Counted from the stretch's first letter, positions 18,701-36,413 are shown. The stretch: DNA of 36,519 bases from Myxococcales bacterium (GCA_002721815.1 PBLQ01000009.1:33074-69592), one strand, 5' to 3'. A program made the numbers and translations. The notes: generated by a model from the sequence alone, not told the origin.

Positions 18701-19932
18701 GTGGCATTGTTGGAACTGTCTTTGACTTGCACCGCCACTGCATAGCGTCCCTGAGTCTCCCCCAATGTGAGATTGGTGAGCGGGGTCCAATCGACCCAAA
18801 CTGGATTATTCTCGTCGATGGCCACACAATCCACAGTGTCTTCGTGACAAACGCCCCATTGCATTTGGATGGGCGGTGACAACGCATCAAAGGCTTCAAT
18901 GGCCAAGGGGACCACATTGTTTTGGGTGTAACCGTGATCGAAATTCAGCCGAATCTGGGTTTGTGGCGGTGTGGTATCACGCACCAAGGTGAGTGTATTG
19001 ATGTCGCTTTCGTAATCGCAATGGTCTTTAAACTTAAAAAAGACCTCTGTTTCGCCCTCGGGAATCTCTTCAATCACCTGGGTTGTTTGAAAGCTTTCGT
19101 AGTTTTCTGGCTCCTCTTCGCCTTGCAACCACATTTTTTGTTCTTTAGCGAACGATGCCAACACATTGATGGTGATGCCCTCGCCACTAAGCAACCAACG
19201 ACTCGAGGTGTCGTTCCCAATAATCTGATCGGTGCCAGCGCTAAAACGTACTGCTGTACTTTTGACATTAAAACTCGGTGCCTCCCGAAGCTCTAAATGC
19301 TGCAACACTTGCACCACTTCCAAACAAGCCCCCTCGCCGTTGCTGCTGGACACCCCAGGTCCGGTGATGGTGAGCGTATAAGAACCCACCTGTACATCCT
19401 CCACCGTGAACGAGCCCTCATCATCAACGGATTCGGAATAGGCAGCTTCGCCCACGCGACGAACGGCTTTATCATTGTCTTCAATGCGCTCTAAGTTCAC
19501 CGTTACCGTGTCAGGGTCAACGCCGACCTCTAAATCCAAAGTGCCCGAAACCGTGCCAAGGCCGAGCTCTAAAGCCACATCGCCGATATCGGCTGCGCCA
19601 CCTTCCTGCAGCAACACACGACGATTAAATTCTTGGTAAGCACTTTCTGAGGCATCGGCGGTGAGGCCCCCCGAATAGATGACTCGAACCTCATAAACAT
19701 CGGGTTCAAGGTCAGACAGCTGAAACACCCCATCTTCATCGGGAATGGTGCTGCCTTCGCCTTGCCCAAGCTCCACAGTGACCCGGCTGAGGTCATTGAG
19801 GCCATTTTCATCCACCAAAACCACGCGGCCTGAGATCGCAGCCCGGACATCGGCCCGCGTGCCTTGTGTGACCGGCTGGCAGCCAAACAAGAAAACCAAT
19901 AAAAACAGTATCTTAAGATATTTTGCCAGCAT
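12709..19932 (-). CDS. Giant modular lipoprotein with carboxypeptidase-regulatory-like, FN3 and beta-helix domains
   Basis: A 2407-residue predicted surface lipoprotein with leader MLAKYLKILFLLVFLFGC and Cys18 lipidated. Approximate domain order: two carboxypeptidase-regulatory-like beta-sandwich modules (35-185); Ig/HYR-like segments introduced by DTTPPQT (300-505); a ladder of about eight more carboxypeptidase-regulatory-like modules (510-1110), each with a G-x-F/Y-x-(F/L)-x-x-(L/I/V)-x-x-G-x-Y core; a sandwich region (1118-1330); two FN3-like domains (1331-1525); a right-handed beta-helix-like region (1535-2050) with PENGMLAIAPGTQIIF and WGGIHLHEDS; an Ig-like domain (2055-2130); an Ig-like Cys module (2174-2235) matching those of the propeller lipoprotein at 1941-5249; and an unassigned Cys-containing tail. 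Adhesion or polysaccharide binding is inferred; no catalytic motif was seen. I chose ATG 19932 because AGGGG is 7 nt upstream; the longer TTG start at 19959 is less likely. It lies downstream of the metalloprotease gene on the same strand. Confidence 0.9.
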   Translation of the reverse strand: MLAKYLKILFLLVFLFGCQPVTQGTRADVRAAISGRVVLVDENGLNDLSRVTVELGQGEGSTIPDEDGVFQLSDLEPDVYEVRVIYSGGLTADASESAYQEFNRRVLLQEGGAADIGDVALELGLGTVSGTLDLEVGVDPDTVTVNLERIEDNDKAVRRVGEAAYSESVDDEGSFTVEDVQVGSYTLTITGPGVSSSNGEGACLEVVQVLQHLELREAPSFNVKSTAVRFSAGTDQIIGNDTSSRWLLSGEGITINVLASFAKEQKMWLQGEEEPENYESFQTTQVIEEIPEGETEVFFKFKDHCDYESDINTLTLVRDTTPPQTQIRLNFDHGYTQNNVVPLAIEAFDALSPPIQMQWGVCHEDTVDCVAIDENNPVWVDWTPLTNLTLGETQGRYAVAVQVKDSSNNATAIFSQDVVYDSIAPQNPSVTIGDGSGQIVTPQVNVTLAADGASHMKTGKASGLAGSVWVPFDAHTTVTFSQEDGLKSLYAKFKDAAGNETDEIIATATLDTTGSITGLIVVEEKADASVALVSLLGTNITTTPSTDGQYTMSNVPAGVYTVQVTVPTEAETYVPTQYGVAVEATQTSSLPNLYVELARGNLTGTLEVETLDDSTDYSGVSVEVLDAGQVAITTETGAFAVSGLIAGDYTVRVAKPGYLSQTLSNVSISHQQDTVIERVGEDKLQLIRGTVAGEVFLEGGGDVTTIQVSVPGVPIQSVSEEGSFEVTDLVPGNHTLHLESTTGDYTAHDQPITILGGQTLSLPSVTLNRARGNLVGLVTLEDENNHSGVSVSLSNSEHQFQAVSNGLGAFDLSGIPTGDYQLTLEKNDFVTHTVPTLTINANEDTDVGTVELAIYRGSAYGIAQLDDSEDHTGIKVYFSGADGVAVTLEDGSWDFPDLKPGFYNVFAEYEGYFGPSYAVYVGAGQNIELQGIVMTRKRGTVTGMVFLEGMTAHAGVTLTLLSDLPALNETFQTTSGPDGAYVFSVPVGNYNGIRAEKTHYATTTLTGTITVTDFGVANADATLMLEGVSNSVSGVATLADLPLGPHDGITVRFMGRPGTDTEGESQSADTDASGNFDFDTIVLGDYDVSYTYDADPNREPVTRGVSIGAGLPVELLPAELREFYLVINDNAPVATANTVTVRLGATDAAEYRLSNSEFTDELTGWQAYVSNTVMWDLSTGDGAKTVYAQFKTDTAELTAVLQASIVVDATATVADFTVTPSADWERGDVIHFRVDAAGESDGGVVVTLGVQDPVVTYPDEDNNYYEVAYATELVLHDDGTAGDAVADDGIYELDYTIEGPVDVAQGVAVAIFTDAYGTASTPFTAAFALQAEPQTITVSVDVNVSLGQATVSWETDEPTTGVLKWGLDALYGNEVVMDASATSHEVLLGESTPLSQSTVYHFAIEATDGNGNASETTNQVFSVRPLVPYLPVAMAGDGRVDIRWEAPEQDNIAGYNIRRATVSETGEVGDYVLLNNDGPYRHEALLFTDTDVTNGTAYKYIVSTVDDQEVESLYEVSADPQAEQPEVLDALPAANSGPTYVGGGLPLMTVWTSSHSPIYVDQNITVPENGMLAIAPGTQIIFNDGPDDTYWTLTVRGRLAVYGERGDGFHFGYEEAWLENDNNMVTFNHSHATEDSRWGGIHLHEDSLPGALRGFKGEYLRGHILYRTKMVNAADLDGAPSSADPSHITLRVEGGTLAMIRSVMAHCDGGIKTTVPLLAMGSRFQANKERTVEVADEGVFYATETHFLGNGDGRDGCCTGNMPVLETKGTKAFLSNVVFSRNSASGRSGNSISNSGVIKIDQHGSLTMSHVDLKQNFGPKSTINQAGGISVSDNGVLRWYHSNSDRNHSRTDNDLKSRGVVRMFDVSLNPSRTRTWAPYYGSEYGYFQSWNTHLKNVSGTLEVFSSELYAIQSEDTFFQASVFERYGEADRMEHYGTHGMLYNHLLGDVTGVFTDLTALSTFRHNSVLTDDTAADMAISEQSFLLNVSEFDEGVLDVTDTFWGYNVTEMLDDSGITEPLDDLVDHPLIYDYREDGLMARSNYGPWAPNAYPLPKVFGPAVVSAARGLTGFEMTASAVDPEDGALSGTAFFWVVNGDVESGLSGESVLVSGLAVGMHTFELWATDSSGQTAKTEYDVEVVDEPGDFIWPDDPHGWYASELIFDTKPFLGPGRATQDTTAHFDFQCRTTACDFACTLDAEPIACDGQLTLTNLEVGLHRLEVQALSNDGASVASPSTFEWRVSDVKICEGWWFDDELWPFVPPLNHGDYLIENENPNTVGVSVQCNDCNDNHRLDYHFSKDGGLMRKIGHCKGVRLRMSGDTSAAPELKWAKSSSAGSVQPNSTPLTFEWSAVYDAAYNLQTYLGDLTDNEQWSYESCGGNSCSRDTLYFYPKVTDDFTLLSIEFYELP

Positions 19933-19961
19933 CCTCGATCCCCTGTCCGACACCTTCAAAG

Positions 19962-20110: not shown

Positions 20111-23100
20111 TTACGGCAACGGATACGCACTGACACCATCAATGGGCACCGCTGGGGAATGCGGGTCGGTATTGGTGTCATCATTGGCGAAATAGATTTT
20201 AGGGGCGGCATCATATCCAAAGTCTGCAACCTGGGTACTGGCTGTATCAGAATAGGTAATGCCCCACATTTCAAAGAAATCGCGTTGGTCTTTTTGCGTG
20301 ATGTAAGAAACGGCCACCAGCATAAAGTCATTGCCATCCATATCATTGGGTGCATCTGCGTAAGTCCCAAACCCTAAGGCCGCTTTTTGGGCATCCCAAT
20401 CCGACTCATTCTTGATGGCATTCCCGAAAAGACGTTCTTGAAGATAGAGCAAGGTATACAGGTCCCAACCACTGCTCAAATAATCCAACGCATCGCTGGT
20501 ATGGATGAGTTGCACATAAAAATTCATGCGCTCGCCATTGTTGGCCGCATAGCTTTCATTGGACCAAATGGCGTCGTAAACGTATTGGGACGGGTCGTTT
20601 TCAGACACTGAAGCTTGCAAAATATTGAAGGTGTTTGAATACGCAACTCTATCCGCACTCAAGCTTTCGTCGGTGTCTTGTTGATAAACGTAATGCTTGT
20701 GTAGTGGGAAAATCTGATTGGAGACTTCGGTGGATTGACCCCCATGGATTTTGAGTCGGCCCGGTTGCAGGTTGTGACCGATTTCATGTGTTTCACCCCA
20801 TCCCAATGGCCCTAAAGGCCAAACTTGATCGTACGGATTCCCAGAGCACCCCCCGCCACAATGGGCATAGGTGTCAACATTGATGTGCTGGGTGCTGGGA
20901 CTGGCATGGATGGTTTCTGACGTACAATCCCATCCTTTGTCTGTGCAATAAGCTGCGACCGACGCGTTCAAACTTAAGCCTGCCCCAGCATATCCTGCGA
21001 GATTGTAAGTGTCCTTAATCATATAATGGTCAAGGTGCGTAAAGAAGAAATCAAGATCGCCGTTATACGGGTCAGCGTTAATCGCCTCGAGCATTTTGTC
21101 TGCTTTGGAATGGATCTCAACCCCACCCATTTTTAGTTCGGTGATGGGATACGGGCTGTTTTGCAGGGCGGCCAAATAAGCGTCTGCATCGGCAATATCA
21201 GTGAGCACAGGATGCTCACCCACGAGTGTTAAGCGCAAGGTAATGGTAGGAGCCGTTTCGGTGGCGTCACTGATCACTTGGAGTACCCCACCATAGGGCG
21301 ACGTGTAAGTAATGGGCGCCCCCGTTTCAATGGGCATCTCAGGACTTTGGAGAAACTTGGGTCGGTCGTATTTGTTATCGTTCCATTCACGCGTTGACCC
21401 GATACGCTGGGTATTAATTTTGAAGTGAAGATCGAGATCCTCTTCATCGAGTCGTTCGATGGTAAAAGGTTGTCCCGGCAACACATAAGCACCCATCGCA
21501 GTAAAGCCACCATAAATAGACAATTCGATGGTTTTTTCGGTGGTCACGAGGGCCACACTGTCCATATCAAAGGGGTCCGAAAACGACCCCAAGTCGGGCT
21601 GACTCATTTGACCGCTGCGGCTGTAATGCACCACGTGGTCCGCGAAATAGGCTTTCATGAATGGCATGATATCGGTGTCGGTTTTGCTCATGGGATATGC
21701 AATGTCTTGCCGTAATCGGTCCGTATAAAGCAAAAGGGCTCTCCAAAACCGCTTGCCATCCATATCGAACAACCGCTGCCCCGTTTCGTCTAAATGTTTA
21801 AAGAAGTTCTTGGCTTTTTGGGCGCCTGCTAAAAATGAGTTTTGCAGCCCTTCCACATCGTCACAGGACACCTTACCCACGTAGTTGGTGCAAACACTAA
21901 AATCAAAAGCCAAATCGTTATTTTGCAAATGGGCCAACGTGACCGCGATACTGTCCAAAGGACCGTCCGCCGCGAGTAGATCTTCGATAGAAGCCCATTG
22001 CGCTTGATCCGCAGCCCAGAAGTTGCCGCCGTAAGGACCAATGGACATGCTCATGCCCGCCAAGGCGCTGTTACCATAATCACTCTCGTCCCACCCCTTC
22101 GTATGAAGATACAGGACGGGCGTCCCATCGTACAGCGCTTGGTCCACCAGATATTCAATGTCTTCAGCATCCGCGTTGTCCCCATTCGCACCCACCACCA
22201 ACAAATCGAGGTTGGACACACAAGCAGTCGCGGAATTAATATCGTTGCAATGGGTCAATGTTGTCACTGGGTAGGCATCATCAAACCAATTATACACTTT
22301 GTTGTACTGCCCACCCAAGCCCATCAAACCGACTTCTTTAGAGGCCATCACTGCTTCATCGTGGTTGTCTGCATCCCCTTCCACGAGCCATGCCAACAAA
22401 CGTCGAAAAGCGGGTTCGAAAGCATCTTGCTCATTTCCGTCCATAAACCGTTTCACCACATTCTCTCCGAAAGCCGCACAAGGAGTATCGTGATGCACGC
22501 CGGCCACCGCGAGACTGTTGCCCTGCTCGCCCAAGACCAAGGTGAACTTGTTCTGGTAATCGGAAGTTTCAATCCACTGGCTGTAGTTGCTTGGTGTGTA
22601 GATGAGGGACGCATCGCCATAAATGTTACTCAAAGCCGATTCCGCATGGGTGGTCATTCCTGCCAAATACTCCAAAGCAAAGGCCAAAGGCACATCGCTA
22701 CTGGCCAACCCCGAAGCGTCCCCAGTGACAAGTGCCGTCTCAAATACGCATCCTGGGTCAATGGATTGGTGGGTGGAATGTGAATTGATGTCGTTGCAGT
22801 CCACGTCGTTATCGTAACCATCGTCATCCATATCAACATCCACACAGGTGACGCCATCGCCGTCATAACCCGCATCGCAGGCACAAACGCGGTCACTGGT
22901 TTCGGTGGGCGCTTGGGTTTCAGTGGCATTTTCATGGCAAATGGTGGTGTCAGTGCAGACACGATCGCTGGTGGCCGTGGACGGAACACTGATGTAATCA
23001 TCGGGCGCGCAAACCGTTAAGCCGGTACAAACCCGATTGGTGGTGGCATCGGGCGCCGTTGATTCATATTCATCGCTGGTGCAAACGGCCCATTCCGTAC

Positions 23101-24304
23101 AGCTTTGGCCATCACCATAAAAACCAGAAACGCATGTGCAGAGGGCCGCGTCCCCCGCAACGACCGCATTTTGGCAAGTGGCATTATCGTCACACCCCCC
23201 ATTATTGGTTTGACATTCATCAAAATCGCTACAGGTGGCGCCACTGCCCACATAGCCCGTGTTGCATACGCAAACCCGATCCGCAGTGGCCGTGGGTGAT
23301 TGCGCTTCCGTGGCGTTGCCATCACACACCGTTAAAGCGGTGCAGACGCGATCGCTGGTGGCCGTGGCTTGGGTGCTCGCATATTCGTCAGAGTTACACA
23401 GGGTCAGAGGTGTACACCCACGGTCGCTCGCGGCGGTGGGTCCGGTGCTCTCGTATTCTGCATTGGTACACACGGTCAAAGGCGTACACCCGCGGTCGCT
23501 GGTGGCCGTGGGTTCGGTGGTTTCGTATTCTGCATTGGTACACACGGTCAGAGGCGTACACCCACGGTCGCTGATGGGAGTGGGTTCGGTGGTTTCGTAT
23601 TCTGTAGTAGCACAGACGGAGACAGGCACACAGACACGGTCACTGATGGCCGTAGCTGCAGTACTTTCGTATTCAGTCGCCGTACAAATGGTTAGAGGCG
23701 CACATCTGCGATCGCTGGTGGCCGTGGGTTCGCTGGTTTCGTATTCTGCATTGGTACACTCGGTCAGAGGCGTACACCCACGGTCGCTGGTGGCCGTGGG
23801 TTCGGTGGTTTCAAATTCCGCAGAGGTACAAACTGTCAAGGGCATACAGACACGGTCGCTGGTGGGCGTGGCCGCCGTACTTTCATATTCAGCAGCAACG
23901 CAAACGGTTAATGCCGCACACGTACGGTCCGTAGTGGTCGTGGGTGCTGTGGATTCATATTCATCAACCTCACAGGCGGTCCAAGCGTTGCATTTCAGCC
24001 CATCCCCAAAATATCCACTTTCGCACGTACAAGATGGTGCATCGCCCGAGGTAGCAGCGTTTTCACAGGCGGCATTTTCATCGCAGCCTCCATTGTCTGT
24101 GGCACATTCATCAATATCAGTGCAGGAACAATCCGTGTCATCCAGCGCCATTCCTGTGGTGCAAGGATCGCAGACTGCATCTGTCCCTGCATCGTTGCTT
24201 TGTGTGGGTGGTAGCGGGTCATTGGGATCGGGATCCACCGGCGCGGTGGGACAAGCGCTCAGCAGGCTCAAAAAGGTCACAAGAGACAAAAGGCGAACGA
24301 ACAT
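20111..24304 (-). CDS. ImpA/M60-type metalloprotease lipoprotein with EGF-like and Cys-rich repeats
   Basis: A 1397-residue lipoprotein (leader ends LLSAC, Cys18). Order: Asp/Pro linker; EGF-like module (about 64-103, DIDECATDNGGC); ten tandem 24-residue Cys-rich units (about 108-345, consensus C-x3-EYE-T-x-PTATSDR-x-C); a second EGF-like module (about 359-400); three more units (401-475); a MopE-like Asp-rich calcium motif DMDDDGYDNDVDCND (about 487-503); and a C-terminal catalytic part of about 890 residues. The active site is GETHEIGHNLQ with His1173, Glu1174 and His1177, and Glu1193 in QSTEVSN as the likely third zinc ligand. This fits the M60/ImpA gluzincin pattern. ImpA-type enzymes cleave O-glycosylated proteins, so a glycoprotein or mucin-like target is inferred. 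I chose ATG 24304 because CGGAG lies 6 nt upstream; an upstream in-frame start at 24358 would bury the leader. It is divergent from the lipoprotein at 24537. Confidence 0.88.
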   Translation of the reverse strand: MFVRLLSLVTFLSLLSACPTAPVDPDPNDPLPPTQSNDAGTDAVCDPCTTGMALDDTDCSCTDIDECATDNGGCDENAACENAATSGDAPSCTCESGYFGDGLKCNAWTACEVDEYESTAPTTTTDRTCAALTVCVAAEYESTAATPTSDRVCMPLTVCTSAEFETTEPTATSDRGCTPLTECTNAEYETSEPTATSDRRCAPLTICTATEYESTAATAISDRVCVPVSVCATTEYETTEPTPISDRGCTPLTVCTNAEYETTEPTATSDRGCTPLTVCTNAEYESTGPTAASDRGCTPLTLCNSDEYASTQATATSDRVCTALTVCDGNATEAQSPTATADRVCVCNTGYVGSGATCSDFDECQTNNGGCDDNATCQNAVVAGDAALCTCVSGFYGDGQSCTEWAVCTSDEYESTAPDATTNRVCTGLTVCAPDDYISVPSTATSDRVCTDTTICHENATETQAPTETSDRVCACDAGYDGDGVTCVDVDMDDDGYDNDVDCNDINSHSTHQSIDPGCVFETALVTGDASGLASSDVPLAFALEYLAGMTTHAESALSNIYGDASLIYTPSNYSQWIETSDYQNKFTLVLGEQGNSLAVAGVHHDTPCAAFGENVVKRFMDGNEQDAFEPAFRRLLAWLVEGDADNHDEAVMASKEVGLMGLGGQYNKVYNWFDDAYPVTTLTHCNDINSATACVSNLDLLVVGANGDNADAEDIEYLVDQALYDGTPVLYLHTKGWDESDYGNSALAGMSMSIGPYGGNFWAADQAQWASIEDLLAADGPLDSIAVTLAHLQNNDLAFDFSVCTNYVGKVSCDDVEGLQNSFLAGAQKAKNFFKHLDETGQRLFDMDGKRFWRALLLYTDRLRQDIAYPMSKTDTDIMPFMKAYFADHVVHYSRSGQMSQPDLGSFSDPFDMDSVALVTTEKTIELSIYGGFTAMGAYVLPGQPFTIERLDEEDLDLHFKINTQRIGSTREWNDNKYDRPKFLQSPEMPIETGAPITYTSPYGGVLQVISDATETAPTITLRLTLVGEHPVLTDIADADAYLAALQNSPYPITELKMGGVEIHSKADKMLEAINADPYNGDLDFFFTHLDHYMIKDTYNLAGYAGAGLSLNASVAAYCTDKGWDCTSETIHASPSTQHINVDTYAHCGGGCSGNPYDQVWPLGPLGWGETHEIGHNLQPGRLKIHGGQSTEVSNQIFPLHKHYVYQQDTDESLSADRVAYSNTFNILQASVSENDPSQYVYDAIWSNESYAANNGERMNFYVQLIHTSDALDYLSSGWDLYTLLYLQERLFGNAIKNESDWDAQKAALGFGTYADAPNDMDGNDFMLVAVSYITQKDQRDFFEMWGITYSDTASTQVADFGYDAAPKIYFANDDTNTDPHSPAVPIDGVSAYPLP
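23270..23983 (-). repeat. 72-bp in-frame tandem repeat array (10 units)
   Basis: Ten consecutive 72-bp units, each encoding 24 residues with two Cys, lie within the metalloprotease gene. Several neighbouring units are nearly identical at DNA level, for example those ending SDRGCTPL. Three more diverged units lie at about 22866-23092 after an EGF-like module. The period keeps the reading frame, so gain or loss of units would change spacer length without frameshift. Confidence 0.85.
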
Positions 24305-24536
24305 GTAGCACTCCGATGCATGAAATGGTTCTGAAAGCCTAAAACGACCGGGCATCACAGTTCAAGGCGGGTTTTCAATGTTCATTTTCAGGGGTTTAAG
24401 CATTGTTCTGACACGGTTGATACCCACCCCAAAAGGTATCTTCGGTGAGATTCGTAGGCTGCGGGTTTTAAAATCCGGTCAGCTTTTACAAGCATGCGCT
24501 TTTTGTTAGTGTTCTTAGGCTTTTCAGGAGGCAAAT
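24305..24536. promoter_or_regulatory. Divergent intergenic region between metalloprotease and lipoprotein operon
   Basis: The 232 bp between two divergent starts must hold both promoters. No convincing -35/-10 pair was found on either strand. A similar motif, GTT(C)TTAGGCTTT(T)CAG, occurs on the minus strand at 24331-24345 and on the plus strand at 24511-24527, each upstream of its own gene but at different distances. The plus-strand gene has a strong ribosome-binding site, AGGAGG, at 24525-24530. Confidence 0.45.
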
Positions 24537-27122
24537 ATGAATCTTAGAACCGGCTTTTCATCTCTGTTCGCAATTTTAGGTTTGGCCCTCATTGGGTGTC
24601 CGGCAGGCGTGCAAGATCCAGAGGGCGGCTCTACCGCCGCTGATGGAGGTTCCATCGATGAAAGCATCGAAAACCCCGAAAGCCCCATTTTTTACGACAT
24701 CGATCTCGAAACCACCGTGAACCCCAAAAACCAGGCCTCGGGCGATGATGATGTGGAGACCATTCGCCCCTACCTCCGACTGAAGATGAATACCGCCGGC
24801 ACCATCGAAACTTCAGATCCCATCACCTGGGAAAACTGCCGTTTGCTCTTTTTACTGGGGCCCGAGGAGATGCCCGAAGAAGGTGCGGAACTCAGCTATG
24901 ACGCCGTGGTCGCCAGTTATACCTTGCCGACGCTCGAGGAAGCCAGCGAGACCATCACCTTGGATGAGAGCACCACAGGCATCATCACTCACGATATCGA
25001 ACCAGGTCGCTATAACATTTGGCACAAGGTGGAATGTGGCGTGGGAGTCACCGTCCACGAAGAAGATGACGAACAAGAAGATGCTGATGAGGATGCTGAA
25101 CCGGAAACCTTTCTGGCCGAAAACGCCTCCATCAGCGACACCACTGTGGAGGTGACCGAACCGTCTGAAGCCATGATCTTCGAAGAGTTCCACTTGTCCA
25201 CTGAGGTGCTGGTGGTGAATCTGCTGCGCAACGAAGCGGTGATGGCCCACCCCGACAATCCGGAACAACGCATCTACCAACCCCCTCACGCCAGACGTCC
25301 CATTTTGGACAAACCTTTGATTTCGATATCCACCGCCGTGACCCAAGCCGGTATCAAACCTGATATGGATGCACCCGCATTGCCAGAGGGTCATCACCTC
25401 GATTGGAACTTCACCCTTGAATTAGTAGACGAGCACCGACCTGAAGGCCTTCCGGGCCCAGTGAAGTTTCAGCTGTCTTGCAAAGACCGCGCACTTTCCG
25501 AAAATGGCAACCGCGTGGATGGCCGGGTCACCTTTCCAGCCGTGAGCTTCCCGCATCAAGGCGGAACTGCACATTACCATTGCGATGCCCAGGTGGCCCC
25601 ACCTGCTATCTTGCCGGCCGACGCCCCCATCGACCCCTTGGCCGATTTTGCCAATGTTCATTCAGATCTTTTCGATCTCAACGCCCAAATGGATTACGAA
25701 TATCCCGACGACAATCGCCGCAATGGCTGGTGGGCGGTCTCGGTGTGCATGGAGCACTGGGAAAACATCGGCACCCCTGAAAACCCTGAGAAACAATTTT
25801 TTCGTAAACGCTGCGCCAAAAAACGACTCTACGTCACCAAAAGTGACAACTTTAGAGTCCGAGGCGATGCCGAAGGCCCCAGAGAGAACGGGCCTGGTGA
25901 CCGCCCCAACCCTGACGACACCTCCGATGACGGTCAAGACGAGCGTCAGGAACAGCCCATCGATGAAGACCTTTTTAAAAGCACGTCCACCCTTTTTGGC
26001 GTGAGCGAAACATTCGCCGACCCCAGCAGCGGTGACAACCAACTCAAGGCTGATTTCGAAGCCGGCGTCCAAGCCGTCGATGACGATGACATGCAGGGCT
26101 TCCGCATCGGCGCGGGTGGTGAAGCTTATCTCGACCTACTGGATGGAGCTCTAGAGGTCAGCCTGGTGGCGGGGAGTCTTTGGGCGGGCTACGATGTGGA
26201 TGACGAGAGTGGCTATTACGAAGCAGGTTTAGAGGTTTTTGAATCAGACGTGTTTGATGAATCTTCAAGCAACGATATCGAATTGAGCATCGAAGAATCC
26301 GCCTCCTACAGTTACACCTACAGCCTCTCCTACGGTATTTTAGGCATCATCACCATCAACTTTGATATGGGCTTTGGGGCCAGCGCTGGGTTTGAAGCCG
26401 GTATCACCCTCGAAGTTGACAGCGATGTGGACAGTGCAGATGCCAATTGCATGCCGGGTGAAGATGAGGTTACCGTGATCGGTCGCGCAGGCCCAGTGGC
26501 CGGCATGTCGGCCTCTATTGGGGTTTCGGTGACCGTGCTTTTCTGGCAAGGCGGGGTTGAAGCGACGCTCAACATTATCGAAGCCTACGTAGGACCAGAA
26601 CTTGATGTGGGCGCTTGTCTCATCACCGAAAATAACACGGTGGAGGGCTTTTACCTCTTTTCAGGGGTCTGGTTCGGCGTCGAAATCGAGGTGCTCTCCG
26701 GCGATATCGAAGCATACGTGAAGTGGGTCTGGTGGTGTGGCGGGGGTACCATCTGGTCGGGTACATTATATGAGTTCGACGGTATCACCTTTACCTACGA
26801 TTTGCTCGATGAAGAGTTTGATCTGAATGGCACCAGCACCTGTGGCAACCAACTCGACGTATTTAACGATGATGCGCGCGGCTATGCCTTTATGAAAGGC
26901 GTCAAGTGCAGCTCTTTGTCGGGTGCTGGATCGCTCATCACGAACACGTCTATTTCGGACATGCTTGAAACCTGTGAGGCCGACAGCGATTGCGTGGGCT
27001 TTAACTTCAACCACACCAACAACAAAGGCAAAACCTTCACCGGTTGCAGCAGTTCCAGTAACTCCTCCAACCACATCACCGTGATGGCCACCGATTCTTG
27101 CAGCGCTTCGGTTTTCGATTGA
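24537..27122 (+). CDS. Large lipoprotein with C-terminal PAN/Apple-like Cys segment
   Basis: An 861-residue predicted lipoprotein with leader lipobox LIGC (Cys21, Pro at +2). AGGAGG is placed 6 nt before the ATG, the strongest ribosome-binding site in the window. Residues about 25-240 are acidic and beta-rich. Residues about 250-460 contain paired Cys and end in a cluster of Arg, Asp and Glu. Residues about 485-745 are Gly/aromatic-rich alternating beta sequence (for example ITINFDMGFGASAGFEAGI). The last about 85 residues have the spacing ETCEADSDCVGFNF seen in PAN/Apple-like modules. I do not recognise the central part. It is the first gene of a tight three-gene set: the next start is 19 nt after its stop, followed by an Omp85 gene. 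A role as surface cargo or partner of that module is inferred from context only. Confidence 0.85.
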   Translation: MNLRTGFSSLFAILGLALIGCPAGVQDPEGGSTAADGGSIDESIENPESPIFYDIDLETTVNPKNQASGDDDVETIRPYLRLKMNTAGTIETSDPITWENCRLLFLLGPEEMPEEGAELSYDAVVASYTLPTLEEASETITLDESTTGIITHDIEPGRYNIWHKVECGVGVTVHEEDDEQEDADEDAEPETFLAENASISDTTVEVTEPSEAMIFEEFHLSTEVLVVNLLRNEAVMAHPDNPEQRIYQPPHARRPILDKPLISISTAVTQAGIKPDMDAPALPEGHHLDWNFTLELVDEHRPEGLPGPVKFQLSCKDRALSENGNRVDGRVTFPAVSFPHQGGTAHYHCDAQVAPPAILPADAPIDPLADFANVHSDLFDLNAQMDYEYPDDNRRNGWWAVSVCMEHWENIGTPENPEKQFFRKRCAKKRLYVTKSDNFRVRGDAEGPRENGPGDRPNPDDTSDDGQDERQEQPIDEDLFKSTSTLFGVSETFADPSSGDNQLKADFEAGVQAVDDDDMQGFRIGAGGEAYLDLLDGALEVSLVAGSLWAGYDVDDESGYYEAGLEVFESDVFDESSSNDIELSIEESASYSYTYSLSYGILGIITINFDMGFGASAGFEAGITLEVDSDVDSADANCMPGEDEVTVIGRAGPVAGMSASIGVSVTVLFWQGGVEATLNIIEAYVGPELDVGACLITENNTVEGFYLFSGVWFGVEIEVLSGDIEAYVKWVWWCGGGTIWSGTLYEFDGITFTYDLLDEEFDLNGTSTCGNQLDVFNDDARGYAFMKGVKCSSLSGAGSLITNTSISDMLETCEADSDCVGFNFNHTNNKGKTFTGCSSSSNSSNHITVMATDSCSASVFD

Positions 27123-27141
27123 TAACGACGGAGCGTTTGAC

Positions 27142-29037
27142 TTGAACAAAAAAATGCTAGGAGCCCTGGCCCTTTTGGGCCTCATTGGGGTCGCGGTTTA
27201 TTTGGCGCAAACCACGGCTCCAACGCCCTTACCCCAAAACACCTCAGGCTGTCAGTTTGACGCCCAAGATGCCCTGCTGTTCTCGTTTTCGCAAAAAGGA
27301 GAAACCCGGCAAAACCAACAAGCCTTGGGGCAAAAGAGTGGCTTTCCAACCCCTTCCGGCACCACACAGAACGACGTGCAACTTCAGGGTCAGATGTTGT
27401 GGGAAGTGACCCAGCCACAGGGTAAGGGGTGGCGCATCCATGCACAAATGCAAAATTTCACCCTGACCCACAGCGGTGATGGCCAAGCCCAAGACCTCGA
27501 AACACAAAAACGCATGCTGCAAGAACCCTTTGCTTTAGACATGGACCGCCGTTGCCGTTTTGTGCAGTTTGGTTTTCAAACCTCGGTCACAACAGAGGTC
27601 CGACAAATGCTCCGTGGTCTTTTACAAAACATGGAATTTGTTTTGCCCCAAAAAAAGCCAGTCCCGGCTCAATGGCGCGTGAAGCAAAACCATGCCTTGG
27701 GACAATACGTGGGCGTCTATCAATCCAATAATGGCGGTTTAAATTTGGAGCGCGCCAAAGAACTGGCCCCATCGGCCCACGAAAAAACGGCGCTCCGCAA
27801 ACTTCAACTCAAACCCCAACTCAATAAAACGCAAATGACAGTGGCGCGAGATGCCAATGGCAAGTGGGCCCAAAGCATCAAGGGCCTTGAAGAGATGCAG
27901 TTGTTTATGGGCAGCACCGAAATGGCCCATATGCGATACGAGTACGAACTCATACGAGAAAAAATCTATAAGCACCAAAACAGCATCGACTTTAAACGCA
28001 GCGTACAATGGCTCAACGCCAAACAAGGACAAGCCGTACAAAACAAACCAATGGACCTGAGCGCCCTCACCGCGCGGGTGCCCAAAATGCCCTATGAGGC
28101 CCTGCTCACGCGCGTCCAACAGCTCATCGACCAAAAAGACTACAATGCCGTGTGGCAGTTCTTAGCGCTTTATTTCAAAGCCCATCCCGAGGTGATTGCC
28201 ACTTTCATGGCCGACATCAAAGCAGGTAAATTGGCCGATGCCTTAGAAAGCTGGGCCATCATGGCCATGGGCAAAGCAGATGTGCCCGAAGGCTACCAAG
28301 CGTTGCGTACGTTACTGCAAGACGACACCTATCCCCACCGGTCGCGCTATCGGGGCGTGGTGGCCCATTTGAACATGGAAAACATCAAGCAAAAAAACCT
28401 CGAGGCGCTGATGACACTCTCCAATGGCTGGACCGAGGCCGGTCAAGGCAAACCGCAGGTGCTCGCAAGTTCGGCACGGCACATGATTGGCAATCAACTT
28501 TCGGTGATGAACAAAAGCGGGGATGCCCGCAACGGCGATATGGCCGAAGCCCTCGAAGGCTGGCTCGACGAGGCCCAGCCAGGTTTTGAACAACGGGTCA
28601 GCATGAAGTCGGTGGGCAACAGCGGCGATGCCCAATTTTTTGAGAAGCTCAAAGACATCAACACCTCAGCCGACGACCGCACCCGCGAGGTGTCTTACCA
28701 TGCCATGCGCTTTATGGACACGCCCGAAAGCCACGCTTATTTTCTAGAACGCATCAAGGCGGAACCCAACGCAGAGGCGTTTAAAGAACTCAGCCAAACG
28801 GTGGCCGGTCAAAGTTTCAACGATGAGCGCGCGCAACTCATTCAAATGGTGGGCGAGCGCCTGTTGCGTGAACCCAACGCTGACATTCGGATTTACCTCA
28901 TCAACATCTTGGCCAGTGTCATTGAGCAAGCGCCTGAGGCCAAAACCTATTTGCAACAACAGCTGCGCCAAGAACGCGTGGTCAAAGTGGTGCAGCGCTT
29001 GGGTGAAGTGATGGCGATGGCTAACGCGGACAACTAA
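27142..29037 (+). CDS. Membrane-anchored protein with possible lipid-transfer-protein (vitellogenin/MTP-like) layout
   Basis: A 631-residue protein with one N-terminal hydrophobic anchor (about 6-22) after basic residues NKK, then a periplasmic body. Residues about 37-180 look like a beta-sheet domain containing the only two Cys, Cys37 and Cys138, a likely disulfide. It ends in FQTSVTTEVRQMLRGLLQNM, reminiscent of the RG-x-L-x-x-L-Q step in the N-sheet of large lipid-transfer proteins. From about residue 305 to the end the sequence is an amphipathic, HEAT-like helical array, including ALESWAIMAMGKADVPEGYQ. The two-part layout suggests, but does not prove, a vitellogenin/MTP-like fold; a generic HEAT-repeat protein is the alternative. 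The TTG start at 27142 is preferred because GGAG lies 8 nt upstream and the basic N-terminus is kept; ATG 27154 is the alternative. Its stop overlaps a downstream ATG in the Omp85 frame. Confidence 0.8.
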   Translation: MNKKMLGALALLGLIGVAVYLAQTTAPTPLPQNTSGCQFDAQDALLFSFSQKGETRQNQQALGQKSGFPTPSGTTQNDVQLQGQMLWEVTQPQGKGWRIHAQMQNFTLTHSGDGQAQDLETQKRMLQEPFALDMDRRCRFVQFGFQTSVTTEVRQMLRGLLQNMEFVLPQKKPVPAQWRVKQNHALGQYVGVYQSNNGGLNLERAKELAPSAHEKTALRKLQLKPQLNKTQMTVARDANGKWAQSIKGLEEMQLFMGSTEMAHMRYEYELIREKIYKHQNSIDFKRSVQWLNAKQGQAVQNKPMDLSALTARVPKMPYEALLTRVQQLIDQKDYNAVWQFLALYFKAHPEVIATFMADIKAGKLADALESWAIMAMGKADVPEGYQALRTLLQDDTYPHRSRYRGVVAHLNMENIKQKNLEALMTLSNGWTEAGQGKPQVLASSARHMIGNQLSVMNKSGDARNGDMAEALEGWLDEAQPGFEQRVSMKSVGNSGDAQFFEKLKDINTSADDRTREVSYHAMRFMDTPESHAYFLERIKAEPNAEAFKELSQTVAGQSFNDERAQLIQMVGERLLREPNADIRIYLINILASVIEQAPEAKTYLQQQLRQERVVKVVQRLGEVMAMANADN

Positions 29038-29114
29038 TGTGGAACCAAAAGTTCTTTTTTAGTTTTCTCATTCCGTTAGAGTGTTCTTTTCCTCCACCGA
29101 GGTTTCCGTTTCTT

Positions 29115-30485
29115 ATGAGTTGCCGTTTAAGCCTCAAAACCCTCACTCTGCTGCTGGCCACCCTGTGGTTCATGGCCCCCACCCTGGGCTGGGCCACCGA
29201 CTGCCCCTTTCGCCCGCTCGAAGGCCAAAAGGTCGCGCAAATAAACTTTGAGGGTTTGGTTCACACGCACCCCCTGGTGGTGCGGCGATCGTTGCTGCAC
29301 CGCAAGGGCGCTGTTTTATCCTGTAACCACTGGCAAGAGGAGCAAAGGGCCCTGCTGGGTCTCGATCTGTTTTCTAAAGTGAATGTGGTGGCCACCTCGC
29401 AAGACGAGGATGTGCACCTGACGTATGACTTTTTGGAGTTGCGTCAGTACGTGTTGTTCCCCGCCATGAAGTCCACCGATCTCAACGGGTTCATGCTGGG
29501 CGGTGGCGGCGCGGCGCTCAATCTTTTTGGGCAAGATATTCGACTGGACGGTTATGGCCGGACCAGCTTGGCCCCATTGTTCAACGCCACCGAATACATG
29601 CTCTGGGCCACCTCCCCTTGGTTGGGCCCTTGGCCGTTGGGCTGGGAAATGTTGCTCACCGGGGTGGATGCCATCAATCCTGGAAAATCATTTTATGAGC
29701 GGTCTTACGCGTTCGAGTTGGATATCTACCAAAAATCATTTCATCCCTTTAACTTTCTGTTCACGGCTGATGTCATTGCGCTACTTCACGACCCCAACAA
29801 CCAATTTTTTACCCCAGATGCCAACACCGCCATTCCCCTTTTTCTCTCAGACACGGGCTGGGATGTGGTGCCTAAAGTTGGCTTTGCCCTCATTTGGGAT
29901 GGCCGCGACCGCATGGTCAATCCCATTTCCGGACAATACTTAGAACTGCGCTGGTCCCAGTTTGGCGGTTTTTTGGGTGGCCCCGCCGATTATCAAGAAT
30001 ACCTTTTAGACTATCGTGGGTATTTCCAGTTGGACCCGGTCCATTATTTACAATTTACCTCGCTGGGCCAATACCGACCGGGCACCATGGGGGCTTACGA
30101 TTTGTATCATGTGGGTGGCACCAACAGCGTGCGCGCCTATGTGATGACTCCCATCAACTACGCTCAGCACGAATGGATCAACACCTTGGAGTACCGTTTC
30201 GCGGCCATTCCGCAACAAGACTTCACTTTTTGGGATGACAATTTTTATTCCGGCCTGCACCTGGTGGCGGGTTTGGATGCGGCGTGGCTGTGGCGTACGG
30301 ATACGGGAGACCCCTACCTCATGTCCACCGCTTATGTAGGCGCGCACATTCTGTTCCCCTACGTGGAGCGTGTTCGGGTGGAGTTTGGCGTGGGTGAACT
30401 GGCGGCGGGCCCAGACAGGTTTATCTGGGGCGTCACCGTGGGACTCTTTGAGAAAGCTTTTATGCAACGAGAGCGAATTCGGTAA
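29115..30485 (+). CDS. Omp85/BamA-family outer-membrane protein with one POTRA
   Basis: A 456-residue outer-membrane protein. It has a signal peptide (about 1-27, cleavage near GWA-TD), one POTRA domain (about 35-115, VAQINFEGLVHTHPLVVRRS through LGLDLFSKVNVV), and a barrel of about 340 residues. The Omp85 loop-6 signature is visible at 333-342 as VGGTNSVRAY; the usual VRGY/VRGF Gly is Ala341. The final strand GVTVGLFEKAF is followed by seven extra polar residues, so the aromatic does not end the chain. Family members insert or translocate proteins, or move lipids, across the outer membrane. With only one POTRA this is not a housekeeping BamA (usually five) and is a dedicated homolog. I chose ATG 29115 for its clean signal peptide; ATG 29037 overlaps the upstream stop (TAATG), adds 26 residues and remains possible. 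The stop lies 1 nt from the convergent AcpH stop. Confidence 0.9.
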   Translation: MSCRLSLKTLTLLLATLWFMAPTLGWATDCPFRPLEGQKVAQINFEGLVHTHPLVVRRSLLHRKGAVLSCNHWQEEQRALLGLDLFSKVNVVATSQDEDVHLTYDFLELRQYVLFPAMKSTDLNGFMLGGGGAALNLFGQDIRLDGYGRTSLAPLFNATEYMLWATSPWLGPWPLGWEMLLTGVDAINPGKSFYERSYAFELDIYQKSFHPFNFLFTADVIALLHDPNNQFFTPDANTAIPLFLSDTGWDVVPKVGFALIWDGRDRMVNPISGQYLELRWSQFGGFLGGPADYQEYLLDYRGYFQLDPVHYLQFTSLGQYRPGTMGAYDLYHVGGTNSVRAYVMTPINYAQHEWINTLEYRFAAIPQQDFTFWDDNFYSGLHLVAGLDAAWLWRTDTGDPYLMSTAYVGAHILFPYVERVRVEFGVGELAAGPDRFIWGVTVGLFEKAFMQRERIR

Positions 30486-30486
30486 C

Positions 30487-31077
30487 TCAGGCGAACCCCG
30501 CGGCCACCCACTCTCGGCTTTGCACCACCAAGTGGGGGTAAAATTCTTCGAACATCTTTTCCAAAGCAGGTCCATGTGACGCTAGGCCAGGAATGCAATC
30601 CGCCACCGGCGCCAAGGCAGGCCGTCGCCGTGACAGACCTTGAAGTGCACGGGTCAAACCGTCCACGTGGGCATAGCTGTTGAGCCAATCATAGGTCATC
30701 ATAAAGTAGGACACGCGTTCAAAATGAGGATTGTCGGCTTGTGTGTCTGCTTGGAGCGTCCCATAAATTTCATGCACAAAGTCCGCCAAAGGTACGGCAT
30801 CGTACGCCGCAAAGTTTTTGGCCAAGCAGTGGTCCCAGAACACGTCCAGTGCAATACCCGCAAACCGCCTTACATTGGGGTCGAACATCTTCTTGGCATC
30901 GCGAATCAAGGGGCTATCTTCGGTGTAGGCATCAATGCGTCGATGGAGCCGAATGGCTGTCTGAAGGTCGGGGGCATAGTCTTTGTAGCGGCTGCCCTTC
31001 ACAAAATCGCCCAGCATGGCCCCCACCAAGGACGTTTGTGTTTCGCGCGCGATGTGAAAATGGGCCAAATAGTTCAT
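30487..31077 (-). CDS. acpH: Acyl carrier protein phosphodiesterase
   Basis: A 196-residue cytosolic hydrolase of the AcpH/DUF479 family (E. coli AcpH is 193 residues). It removes the 4'-phosphopantetheine arm from holo-ACP, regenerating apo-ACP. Family features are the N-terminus MNYLAHFHIA, the metal-site region GAMLGDFVKG, AIRLHRRIDAYTEDSPL, and the DVFWDHCLAKNF segment. I chose ATG 31077 because it gives the canonical N-terminus and overlaps the stop of the lipase-like gene (ATGA); no good ribosome-binding site is visible, consistent with translational coupling. An upstream extension to 31152 would add 25 uncharacteristic residues. Its position after two secreted lipoproteins is unusual for a housekeeping enzyme. 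Confidence 0.92.
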   Translation of the reverse strand: MNYLAHFHIARETQTSLVGAMLGDFVKGSRYKDYAPDLQTAIRLHRRIDAYTEDSPLIRDAKKMFDPNVRRFAGIALDVFWDHCLAKNFAAYDAVPLADFVHEIYGTLQADTQADNPHFERVSYFMMTYDWLNSYAHVDGLTRALQGLSRRRPALAPVADCIPGLASHGPALEKMFEEFYPHLVVQSREWVAAGFA

Positions 31078-32360
31078 GGTGATAGGATGTCGTCCAACCA
31101 AGCAAAACACAAGGGATTGCCTGTTTGCACGTAACCCAACATGCCAAAACAAGTATCGGCGTGCGTGCCCCCTTCTACCACCACCAGGTCGATATCGGTT
31201 CCCGCGGCCTGCAGATCGGTGACGAGCTGATCGGATGCCGATAAAGGAACAAGTTCATCGAGCGTGCCTTGAAAGACTTTGAGCGAAGCATTGGATTCAA
31301 ACCCCACCAAGCGATTGTCTTCAAAGCCTTGGCGAAAAGCCGGAAACTCTGACAAGTCATCCTGCGTGAAAGCGTCGATGAGTTCTTGGGAAAAAATTTC
31401 TGTGGGCACCATTGGTAACACGTCATAAAGACCATTGCCTTCCATATCAAAAAGGCAATGGTTGTTGAGCAAGGCCACCATTTCATCTCGTTTGCCCTCT
31501 GCCCAACTGTCCGTATCGTCGATATTATAATGTTGATGCCAAGCGTAATTCACCAACGCATTGAATACCATATGGGGGCCTTCGTATTGCAAATATGGCG
31601 TCCACTGCTCTCGATACAGGCTAGAAGGTGCCACGGCCCCAAAGCCCATAATGGGCAGTTCTGGCGCGTAGGTGGCATGGAGTTCTGCCGCGGCCAAAGT
31701 GGCGTGCCCACCTTGGCTGAGGCCCACAATGGCATCTTTATCTTTGAGCGGAATGTCCAACAGTGCCATTAAGTGACGCGTGGCTCGTAACCCATCCAAA
31801 CTGGCCTTCCCTTCAGATTCTTTGACCAAATAAGGATGAACCCCATCGCTGCCCAATCCAGGGTAATCCACGGCCGCGCCCACATAACCGCGCGCCCCGA
31901 AGGTACCCGCGAGGCCTGTCCCGTAGGCTGAAAATCCCGGCGCACAATGCCAAGCCACGCCTACCGTGCCCGGATTGTTCACCACCACAGAAAAACCGTC
32001 AGGATCTCGCGGTTCCACATCGGGCACCGTAACTGTCACCCGCGCATATCGGTTTTGCGTGGCGTAATACGCTTGCCAAACGCTGTATCCATTATCAATG
32101 GTTTGATTGTTTTCTTCGTAGGCCTGCAGCTCAGTCAGGCCCCAAGCGCCCAAAAAAGTAACCGAACGCAAACATCCGTCGGTTTCGCAATCAAGATTGA
32201 CATGTTCAGCAAACTGCGCAACCACGTCGCCTGCTTCGTTTGAGGATGGGCTCTCAGAGGGTTTGGTGGATTGGGACGCGTCCCCCACTCCGGTCTGACA
32301 CGCAGCCGTTAGGCTCGCCACAAAAAGGCTGAAGGCAAAAAGCGCACCGGCCTTATTCAC
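31074..32360 (-). CDS. Secreted alpha/beta-hydrolase (secretory-lipase-like) lipoprotein
   Basis: A 428-residue predicted lipoprotein with leader MNKAGALFAFSLFVASLTAAC (Cys21). It carries an alpha/beta-hydrolase fold of the secretory lipase (LIP) type. The catalytic triad can be read as Ser215 in GLSQGGH, Asp368 in TLDELVP and His400 in EGGTHADTC. The AVDYPGLGSDG strand-turn and APGFSAYGTG region are typical of the family. It probably cleaves esters at the cell surface; the substrate is unknown. The start is uncertain. GTG 32360 gives the best signal peptide and overlaps the upstream stop (GTGAATAA), suggesting coupling. GTG 32396 has AGGGAG 4 nt upstream but a neutral N-terminus. TTG 32414 is the longest option. 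It ends overlapping the AcpH start. Confidence 0.87.
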   Translation of the reverse strand: MNKAGALFAFSLFVASLTAACQTGVGDASQSTKPSESPSSNEAGDVVAQFAEHVNLDCETDGCLRSVTFLGAWGLTELQAYEENNQTIDNGYSVWQAYYATQNRYARVTVTVPDVEPRDPDGFSVVVNNPGTVGVAWHCAPGFSAYGTGLAGTFGARGYVGAAVDYPGLGSDGVHPYLVKESEGKASLDGLRATRHLMALLDIPLKDKDAIVGLSQGGHATLAAAELHATYAPELPIMGFGAVAPSSLYREQWTPYLQYEGPHMVFNALVNYAWHQHYNIDDTDSWAEGKRDEMVALLNNHCLFDMEGNGLYDVLPMVPTEIFSQELIDAFTQDDLSEFPAFRQGFEDNRLVGFESNASLKVFQGTLDELVPLSASDQLVTDLQAAGTDIDLVVVEGGTHADTCFGMLGYVQTGNPLCFAWLDDILSP

Positions 32361-35300
32361 AGACACGACTGCTGCCACCGACCATGAAGGAGACACCTTG
32401 CTCCCTCGCACCAATGTCTCTGAACTGACCGCTGACTGCGGAAACCCATTCCTGGATCACATCGGGGTAGTCAATGGTGGTGCCCTTGTCGACCCAATAA
32501 AAGTTGTTGCTGCCTTCGACACACCCGTAGCTATCTATCCCATTCAGCTCTGGGAAGGCACTGGTGCAGCCTGCAGAAAAGCCACCATTATTGGAGTAGC
32601 AATAGTCCTGGCAACAGTTGTCAAAACCATTTCGGCAAGTACCATCTTCGTAATTCTGACAAACATCGCCCAGATCGCAACTAAACCCTGAACAGAAGCC
32701 GTCATCGATGCCCACGTAGTTATTTTGCAAAGGGCTGCCTAACGCGCTTTCAAACATGTTACGCAGATAAAAAGCCAAATCAAATTCGCCTTTGTAAATA
32801 AGGTTATTGCGAACGTAGGTGGACATGCCAGAGGCCCAAATCGCGTCTTGATAGCCACTCACATTCAAGTGAATGGTGTTGTTATCGATGGCAGTGGTAA
32901 AGTCACAGTCATCCGTATTGCCATCGACATTCAACAGGATGGCGGGCTGAAAGTTGCCTTGCAGAAAATTGAAGCCCACAAACGAACAGTCACCGAAGAG
33001 GTAAATCCCCTGAGCTTGGCCCTGGAAATCGTCGGCAGGTGCACGGATGGTGTTGTTCACGGCAATCACGTTGGCCCGGCCGTCATCACCAAGGATGCCA
33101 TATTCAAACTCATCGCCATTGCCCTGGGAGTTGTAACTGCCTTCAATCAACAAATCGGTGATGACCACATAGTTTTCGTTGTTACTGTCGGATTCAATTT
33201 TCACCCCTTGCCGGGTTTCTTCAAGGACAAGATTTTTGAGCACCACGGGCCCTTCCAGGTTCGTATCATCGATCCGGAAAGCGGGGCCGTTGTTGGGCGC
33301 CTTCATGCGCACAGGTGAATCAGCATCTGCCGAAGTGATCACCAATCCATTTTCGCGCTCAACGTCAATGGTGGAATTGAGTTCCCAGCGTCCTTCATCC
33401 GTGTACAGGTTTTCAGCTGGAATGAGTTCCCAATCTGGCACGCCCATGGAGGGTGCATTCCACCACAGCTGCAAGGCAAGCCCGCCTGCTCTTTGGTAAT
33501 ACTCGATCTCAATGGGATACATATCCCCGCCTTGGGCGTTATCGAGTTCAATATTATCCTGTTCGGCGCCATGATCAGTCCAATTGTTGATCACAGTGTT
33601 CAACCCGTCTCCGGTATCCAACCTGACGCGGATGCCATCGTCAGAAACCGTGGCGATGGTGAGGTCCGAAATATTACCAGTGCCCGGGAGCTTGATCATG
33701 CCGGTCGCCACCACGTAAAAAGAAATCGTTCGACTGATACGGTCTTGAGCCACATCCCTGTCGATGTACACCGGGCCCATGGTTTCTTCGTAAATAACCC
33801 CGCCGGCGCCTTCCGGTGAATCAGCATTTTGACTAAAATTGTAAAATGCCACATTCAAACCACCCGATTGAGGTTCGGGGGAAGGAATCACGATAATCTG
33901 ATTGACCTCTTTGTTCACTTCGGCCTGTAACCGGTTGGCAAAGTTGTTTGGATTTGAAGGAATAATGCTCCCATTGCAATCGCTGGTATCAACAGAACAC
34001 GAACTGGTGCAATTCAAAGACGTGGACGTGCCGTTGTTATCTCGCAAGCCATAGGTGGCACAGCTCAAACCGCCAAATTCGTCGCCATCGCAGACTTCTT
34101 CGCCTTCGAGGATGCCGTTGCCACACTGATTGTAAGAGCACTGAGCCGAACAAAAGCCGTCTTCGGCTTGGCCACCATTCGGGCCTTCATCGCACTCCTC
34201 AGCCCCAGCGGCGATACCGTCACCACAGTCGGTAAAACAATCCGAAGGCTCGCCTTCGCAGTACCACCCCGTTTGAATCTGGCAGGTATCGTTGGTGCAA
34301 CCGTCCTGTTCGTTATTATTGGGGAGCGTGTCTGGAGACATATTAATGTTGTCGCATTCCTCGGTCCCCGCAATGATGCCGTCTCCACACTGCGTGTTAC
34401 AATCGGAGGGTTGTCCTTGGCACAGCCAACCGGTTTCAGTTTGGCAAATGCTTGAACAACCATCGTTACTGTCGTCGTTTGCATCGTCACAGGTTTCGTC
34501 GCCCTTCGTCGACCCATCGCCACACACCGCCGCACAGGTGGAAGGTTCACCTGCACAGGCCCAACCAGCTTCCAGTTCGCAAGTGTTCGAACATCCGTCG
34601 CCATCGGCAACATTGGTATCGTCACAGGCTTCGTCGCCTACAATGAGACCATCGCCACATTCCGCTTTACAGACCGTGGCACCGGTGGTTGTCGATACGG
34701 AACAGCTCCACCCTTGTTCAACGGTGCAGGTCGCAGAGCAACCATCGCCTGAGTTGGTATCACCATCATCGCAAGGTTCATCGGCTGCAGGAATTCCATC
34801 CCCACAAACGGAAGTACAGACCGAGGGAGAACCGGAACACGTGTAGCCGGTTTCGGCTTCGCAGGTTGCAGAACAACCATCTAAATCATCGTCATTACCG
34901 TCATCACAGGATTCGCTGGTCAACACCACGCCATCACCACAGATCACCGAACAGACAGAGGGTTCCCCTTCACATTGCCAACCCGCGCCAACGCCGCATG
35001 CGGCACTACAGCCATCGCCATTTTCCGTGTTCCCGTCATCACAGGCTTCATCGCCTCGTCGCAACCCGTCCCCGCAAATGGCCGCACAGGCAGAAGGAGA
35101 ACCGTCGCAGGTCCAGCCCGGTTCGGTATTGCACCCAGAATTACACCCGTCTTGGTCATTCAAATCGCCATCATCACAAGACTCGGCACCGGCCACGACA
35201 TTGTCACCACAAGTGGTGGCGCAGATAGAAGGTTCACCATTACAGGACCAGTCTGCTTCGACCGCACAGAAAGCACAGCCATCGGCTTCGGCGGGATTGC

Positions 35301-36261: not shown

Positions 36262-36294
36262 GTAACCACCTAAAAGTGTCGAAGATTCATGGGG

Positions 36295-36322
36295 ATTGTA
36301 TAGCATATATAGCGTTGGCCAA
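36295..36322 (-). promoter_or_regulatory. Predicted sigma70-type promoter of the DUF4215 lipoprotein operon
   Basis: On the minus strand, TTGGCC (36317-36322, 4/6) and TACAAT (36295-36300, 5/6) are separated by 16 nt. Transcription would start near 36288, 27 nt before the ATG at 36261. It likely drives the three-gene set down to AcpH. Confidence 0.55.
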
Positions 36323-36413
36323 GGGTCGGATCTTTGCCGGGCGCCATGCAGATGTACGAACACTAAAACCTCTTATTTTCAAGCACTTATGAAAACGCCG
36401 TCCTCCCTAACTG

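Follow-up and report, generated by a model that had tools for sequence, protein, structure and literature searches.

What do three tightly packed genes in a Myxococcales bacterium encode, and which of them belong together? The genes, here called A, B and C, lie at positions 24537-30485 of a stretch of 36,519 nucleotides (GCA_002721815.1 PBLQ01000009.1:33074-69592; the whole stretch is referred to as the window), and translation of the window confirmed all three open reading frames on the plus strand. Pfam gave no match for the A protein, HEAT_2 for B, and Omp85 and POTRA for C. A first-pass annotation of the DNA had read the three as a single unit, composed of a surface lipoprotein, a membrane-anchored protein resembling the lipid carriers vitellogenin and MTP, and an Omp85 barrel with one POTRA; on the whole, this reading is partly supported. 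What the analysis shows is the order of the genes, that A and B occur and vary together, and how the proteins are predicted to fold. The conserved unit is the pair A and B, with a third gene that varies by lineage, and we lean slightly towards the view that this pair forms a bacterial lipid carrier resembling the animal large lipid transfer proteins (LLTPs; vitellogenin, MTP and apoB), split over two adjacent genes.

In known LLTPs a barrel, a helical cradle and the cavity sheets are all found on a single chain (PMC8727950, PMC9219001, PMC7444587). The first two of these parts are predicted in gene B, whose features are as follows.

27142-29037, plus strand: gene B, 631 residues from a TTG start, membrane-anchored, similar to the vitellogenin/MTP N-module
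27157-27210, plus strand: N-terminal membrane anchor, residues 6-23 (predicted helix, mean hydropathy 2.4)
27250-27252, plus strand: Cys37, half of a probable disulfide, from Cys pairing among relatives
27268-28017, plus strand: β-barrel resembling the LLTP N-sheet, residues 43-292, from the model, with no sequence-level LLTP match
27553-27555, plus strand: Cys138, the probable partner of Cys37, from the same pairing
27592-27630, plus strand: single helix within the barrel, residues 151-163 (QMLRGLLQNM), from the model
28057-29022, plus strand: helical superhelix, residues 306-627, from the model and a profile match to lipovitellin 1lsh
28618-28620, plus strand: near-invariant Asn493 in an LGN/GN motif, aligned to human MTP Asn479

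The model of B (AlphaFold2 on eight sequences; predicted local distance difference test (pLDDT) 76.8, predicted TM-score 0.51) runs from the N-terminal membrane helix through the barrel strands, interrupted by one helix, to about 20 antiparallel helices. The β domain with exactly two Cys, the QMLRGLLQNM step and the helical array noticed in the first pass are thus all present, and the proposed layout of a sheet followed by a superhelix is borne out by a Foldseek search of the PDB, in which the top eight matches were all MTP, lipovitellin, apoB100 or vitellogenin: MTP 6i7s at 1.2e-15 and lipovitellin 1lsh at 2.2e-15, with MTP 8eoj, two apoB100 and two honeybee vitellogenin entries following among the eight. 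These matches span the whole length of B; generic solenoids come next, at 2e-5. TM-scores are low (0.37), consistent with the angle between its two domains being poorly fixed.

Relatives of B are distant and occur in other Myxococcota families (named records include Citreicoccus, Corallococcus and Myxococcus). No relative of window B was found among 15 genomes of the same order, nor by single-sequence searches of GTDB contigs, plasmids and the PDB, and the kinship is visible solely through the family profile. Many Myxococcaceae have several matches per genome, up to six, the weak ones including ordinary HEAT proteins; four such matches (L088, L090, L091 and the second in L073) resemble generic HEAT proteins and were left out of the B family, the alignment of which holds 48 members. 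The two Cys of the β domain, Cys37 and Cys138, are both kept or both lost in 47 of the 48, an all-or-none pattern that suggests a disulfide between them. A match to LPD_N, which the first-pass annotation had led one to look for, was found at the level of the family: 43 of the 48 members match Pfam Vitellogenin_N (PF01347, LPD_N), the best at 1.4e-18. A profile of the first helices of B aligns continuously over about 160 residues with residues 313-477 of lipovitellin 1lsh (6.9e-10), ending in the motif ALGNAG, and with residues 331-489 of MTP (1.7e-5). Counted from the end coordinates in the full-length MTP chain, the near-invariant Asn493 of B would fall on human MTP Asn479, a helix-10 residue through which the C-sheet is bonded to the helical domain (PMC7444587). 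The B chain stops after the helices and carries neither of the lipid-cavity C- and A-sheets (DUF1943/PF09172), and because of this we do not file it as a full LLTP.

Where, then, could the missing sheets be? The constant neighbour of B is the lipoprotein gene upstream.

24526-24531, plus strand: Shine-Dalgarno sequence AGGAGG, read directly 5' of the gene A ATG
24537-27122, plus strand: gene A, large lipoprotein of 861 residues with a conserved β domain, adjoining gene B
24537-24599, plus strand: lipoprotein signal peptide with lipobox LIG-C (Cys21)
25923-26861, plus strand: conserved amphipathic β domain, residues 463-775, from profile, model and Foldseek; a proposed lipid-cavity sheet
26862-27119, plus strand: Cys-rich C-terminal tail outside the conserved domain, from the translation

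The first-pass annotation had taken A for a surface lipoprotein, and its signal peptide, with the lipobox LALIG-C and Cys at residue 21, agrees with a lipoprotein; the annotation had overlooked a conserved β domain, which makes A more than a surface partner and, as the candidate partner half of B, is what is new relative to that reading. Iterative profile searches showed that this amphipathic domain of about 310 residues is common to A and the exported neighbours of other B genes, and a profile built without window A scores it at 1.2e-13 after one round and at 5.7e-24 once converged. The domain model is all-β, with longest strands of 22-31 residues, and the strands show strong amphipathicity (z averages 4.1 across 42 domains, against -1.3 for a helix-angle control; 4.6 in window A). 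Its two best PDB fold matches in Foldseek are MTP chains (3.6e-4 and 1.5e-3; probability 1.00 and 0.99), after which the probability is at most 0.35. PF09172, the vitellogenin open β sheet, appears below threshold in two A domains; its best value, 0.053 over the whole of Pfam, would be a small chance event if counted for one family named in advance, the hypothesis having been noted after the match was seen. On the predicted fold, the A domain is the best candidate for the cavity sheets that B lacks.

The association of A with B can be counted independently of any fold. At the surveyed B loci an exported protein adjoins B, directly upstream on the same strand in 33 of 43 pairs and divergent or downstream in the rest. 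Among 541 proteins the A domain was matched 42 times, always next to a B gene; all of these proteins were drawn from B loci, and the fairer test is the genome-wide count, in which the domain occurs in 33 copies in 15 whole genomes, 33/33 beside a B gene (A coordinates were compared with B matches, and six further regions were read). Pairs are present in eight family-level groups. Distances between A proteins correlate with those between their B proteins (rho 0.66, where 1000 permutations reached no more than 0.26), which comes partly from shared species history; free of that effect is the comparison of paralogues, in which each A of a two-pair genome tracks its own B (L074/L077, for example, give 95% and 90%, compared with 15% and 21% to the second pair that the genome carries). 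The conserved neighbourhood expected across Myxococcota exists for A and B, and not, in the pairs examined, for the Omp85 gene; together with the layout of the B model, this means that both outcomes named in the first-pass annotation as refuting its reading failed to appear. Some B paralogues adjoin dnaA and have no neighbouring A: in Myxococcus-group genomes (L066-L070) the gene directly downstream of dnaA is a B paralogue, DnaA being recognised from its sequence rather than by a family search. In genome G059 (L068) an A-B pair stands directly upstream of dnaA, and in G057 (C1, L094) a pair is found at the chromosome end. A Myxococcaceae-type pair also occurs in a record titled Comamonas sp. 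KCTC 72670 (L021), which is seemingly misnamed.

Several observations weigh against an LLTP-like pair. On the side of B, the PF01347 matches are confined to the helical half (profile positions 302-586), window B itself has no PF01347 match even at E 10 and is given HEAT_2 alone, and the barrel taken by itself found no LLTP in a sequence-profile search, so that its kinship to the LLTP N-barrel is argued from predicted structure and domain order. A HEAT protein encoded elsewhere in the genome (contig C28), and unrelated to B, likewise passes the PF01347 cut-off, and for this reason the match is insufficient as sole proof of kinship. On the side of A, the model is of moderate quality (pLDDT 64.9), TM-scores to MTP are low (0.24), the match is given without the part of MTP that aligned, and any long amphipathic sheet may give such a match; the A profile matched no PDB sequence; a search of 146 genomes with PF09172 at 1e-3 found none, a weak negative given that the control genomes gave none either; and the model has no counterpart of the helix linking cavity sheets C and A in known LLTPs (PMC9219001).

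These points would be expected if B were an ordinary HEAT-repeat solenoid with an unrelated β domain, A an unrelated outer-membrane or pore-like β structure, and the LLTP likeness convergent. Designed α-repeat proteins outrank lipovitellin by sequence profile, PF01347 is matched also by HEAT proteins that are no relatives of B, the barrel has no sequence match, and MACPF, aerolysin and porin folds are among those next after MTP in the list for A. We nevertheless consider convergence improbable: the best LLTP match of B in Foldseek is ten orders of magnitude ahead of the best solenoid and the weakest of the eight is also ahead, the lipovitellin alignment is one continuous block at an equal distance from the N-terminus and includes LLTP landmarks, and two independent parts of the pair both give MTP first.

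A split carrier is the simplest account, since B has a predicted barrel, a cradle and the docking Asn and ends there, and its constant neighbour A provides a predicted amphipathic sheet closest in fold to MTP. In the proposed model, B would be tethered to the inner membrane and supply the N-terminal barrel and the helical cradle; A, exported and in this species a lipoprotein, would dock its amphipathic β domain in the cradle and close a lipid-holding cavity; and B would then either fill A with lipid, in the way that MTP fills apoB, or pass lipid across the periplasm together with A. Contact between A and B, the cavity, lipid transfer and the direction of movement are what we infer here. With the cavity sheets missing from B and only proposed for A, membership of the LLTP superfamily is not claimed, and what we propose is that the pair works like an LLTP.

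The same pairing and co-variation could be explained without any lipid. B may be a dedicated periplasmic chaperone, tethered to the inner membrane, that brings A to the surface. It would recognise the β domain of A, whose role would lie in sorting, secretion or anchoring, and the LLTP likeness would reflect a shared way of holding amphipathic β sheets. Most A proteins are marked for export by a signal or lipobox, and their other parts, C-type lectin or EGF domains for instance, vary, as expected for displayed cargo with a common handling domain; the one-to-one pairing is tight; and MTP itself chaperones apoB (PMC3337244). We regard this explanation, the main rival, as unlikely, if worth keeping in mind, as the A domain resembles lipid-binding MTP rather than known secretion domains and B retains the MTP residue that docks the lipid sheet.

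What of the third gene?

29037-30485, plus strand: gene C, Omp85 protein (Pfam Omp85), 482 residues from the longer ATG, likely start 29115
29229-29432, plus strand: single POTRA (Pfam POTRA, E 0.0016, 19.5 bits against a cut-off of 21.3)

Genes A and B are separated by 19 nt, and B and C overlap in TAATG if the longer start of C is taken, as the first-pass annotation had noted. The internal ATG at 29115 is the likelier start, judged from the sequence, because the longer reading puts 26 extra residues before an ordinary signal peptide; with it, the spacing would be 19 nt and then about 77 nt. The protein matches Pfam Omp85 (PF01103) at E 1.5e-11 (44.9 bits, cut-off 24), and its one POTRA falls just below the Pfam cut-off, the POTRA region of the BamA model (positions 323-394) also being aligned; the Omp85 part of the original assignment is thus firm and the POTRA part borderline.

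In the original reading the lipoprotein, B and the Omp85 protein made up a single export or lipid-trafficking machine of three parts, the Omp85 protein being its dedicated outer-membrane channel, and C does follow B directly on the same strand, as the sole gene before a convergent gene. No Omp85 relative was found near any other A-B pair examined, and co-inheritance of the trio could not be assessed in the 15 same-order genomes, which hold no window-B relative; we hold the three-part machine to be very improbable and reject C as a member of the conserved module. It is best described as a lineage-specific neighbour, linked to A by position, and that it is the exit or receiving end for A in this species would be a guess. 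Downstream of other pairs lie, depending on lineage, a metalloprotease-like lipoprotein, a laminin-G lipoprotein or unrelated genes. In one lineage (L009 7827-9089, minus strand; L010 7483-8418, minus strand; L087) the gene after B encodes a conserved lipoprotein with a metalloprotease-like HExGHxxGxxH motif, and in another Myxococcaceae subtype (L079, L085, L086, L093, L095, L097) B is always followed by a conserved exported protein of about 590 residues (AD.VDDV.RGTN...), a possible third member there.

Among known systems, MTP is the best fold match of both B and A and shares with the model of B a barrel and helical module of matching order and similar size, as well as the position of the helix-10 Asn that contacts the C-sheet. 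It differs in carrying barrel, helices and C/A sheets on one chain, where here the β sheet is on a second protein, and in pairing with PDI in the endoplasmic reticulum (ER), whereas B is membrane-anchored and no PDI was seen. Vitellogenin and lipovitellin (honeybee 9ens, lamprey 1lsh) have an equal domain order and a continuous profile match over the first helices, including ALGNAG; unlike them, B is bacterial, membrane-tethered and about a third the size, and its chain lacks DUF1943, DUF1944 and vWD. The N-terminal module of apoB100 has the predicted fold of B, and A might stand to B as lipidated apoB does to MTP, but A lacks the apoB N-module and has another size and other companions. The Lol and Mla/AsmA systems share the task of moving lipids or lipoproteins between two membranes. 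None of their families appeared in Pfam or NCBIfam scans of A or B.

Other genes of the window also encode large or lipid-related proteins. Divergent from gene A, at 20111-24358 on the minus strand, is a lipoprotein of 1415 residues with EGF/TNFR-like repeats and an IMPa-type M60 metallopeptidase (Pfam 2e-46); a lipoprotein of 2416 residues is encoded at 12709-19959 on the minus strand, a protein of 1336 residues with 11 DUF4215 repeats and a PA14 domain at 32353-36363 on the minus strand and, overlapping the latter, a secretory-lipase-family lipoprotein at 31074-32414. An Rfam scan of the window found no RNA family.

No bacterial vitellogenin or LLTP was found in the literature searched, which did not extend to preprints or most subscription papers, and as far as that literature goes the cradle-plus-sheet design of LLTPs has previously been described only in animals. 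A wider proposal is that animal LLTPs have bacterial relatives, a two-gene system of cradle and exported lipid sheet, present in several pairs per Myxococcota genome, that assembles lipid-loaded periplasmic proteins much like MTP with apoB in the ER, and is maybe related to the animal proteins by descent; this we put forward tentatively and consider doubtful at present. If true, a split bacterial version would show how a lipid cavity can be assembled from parts and would provide a small and manageable system in which to study a lipid-loading mechanism that matters for human lipoprotein disease. It would also add a new way for lipids to move between bacterial membranes and have implications for the origin of animal lipoproteins.

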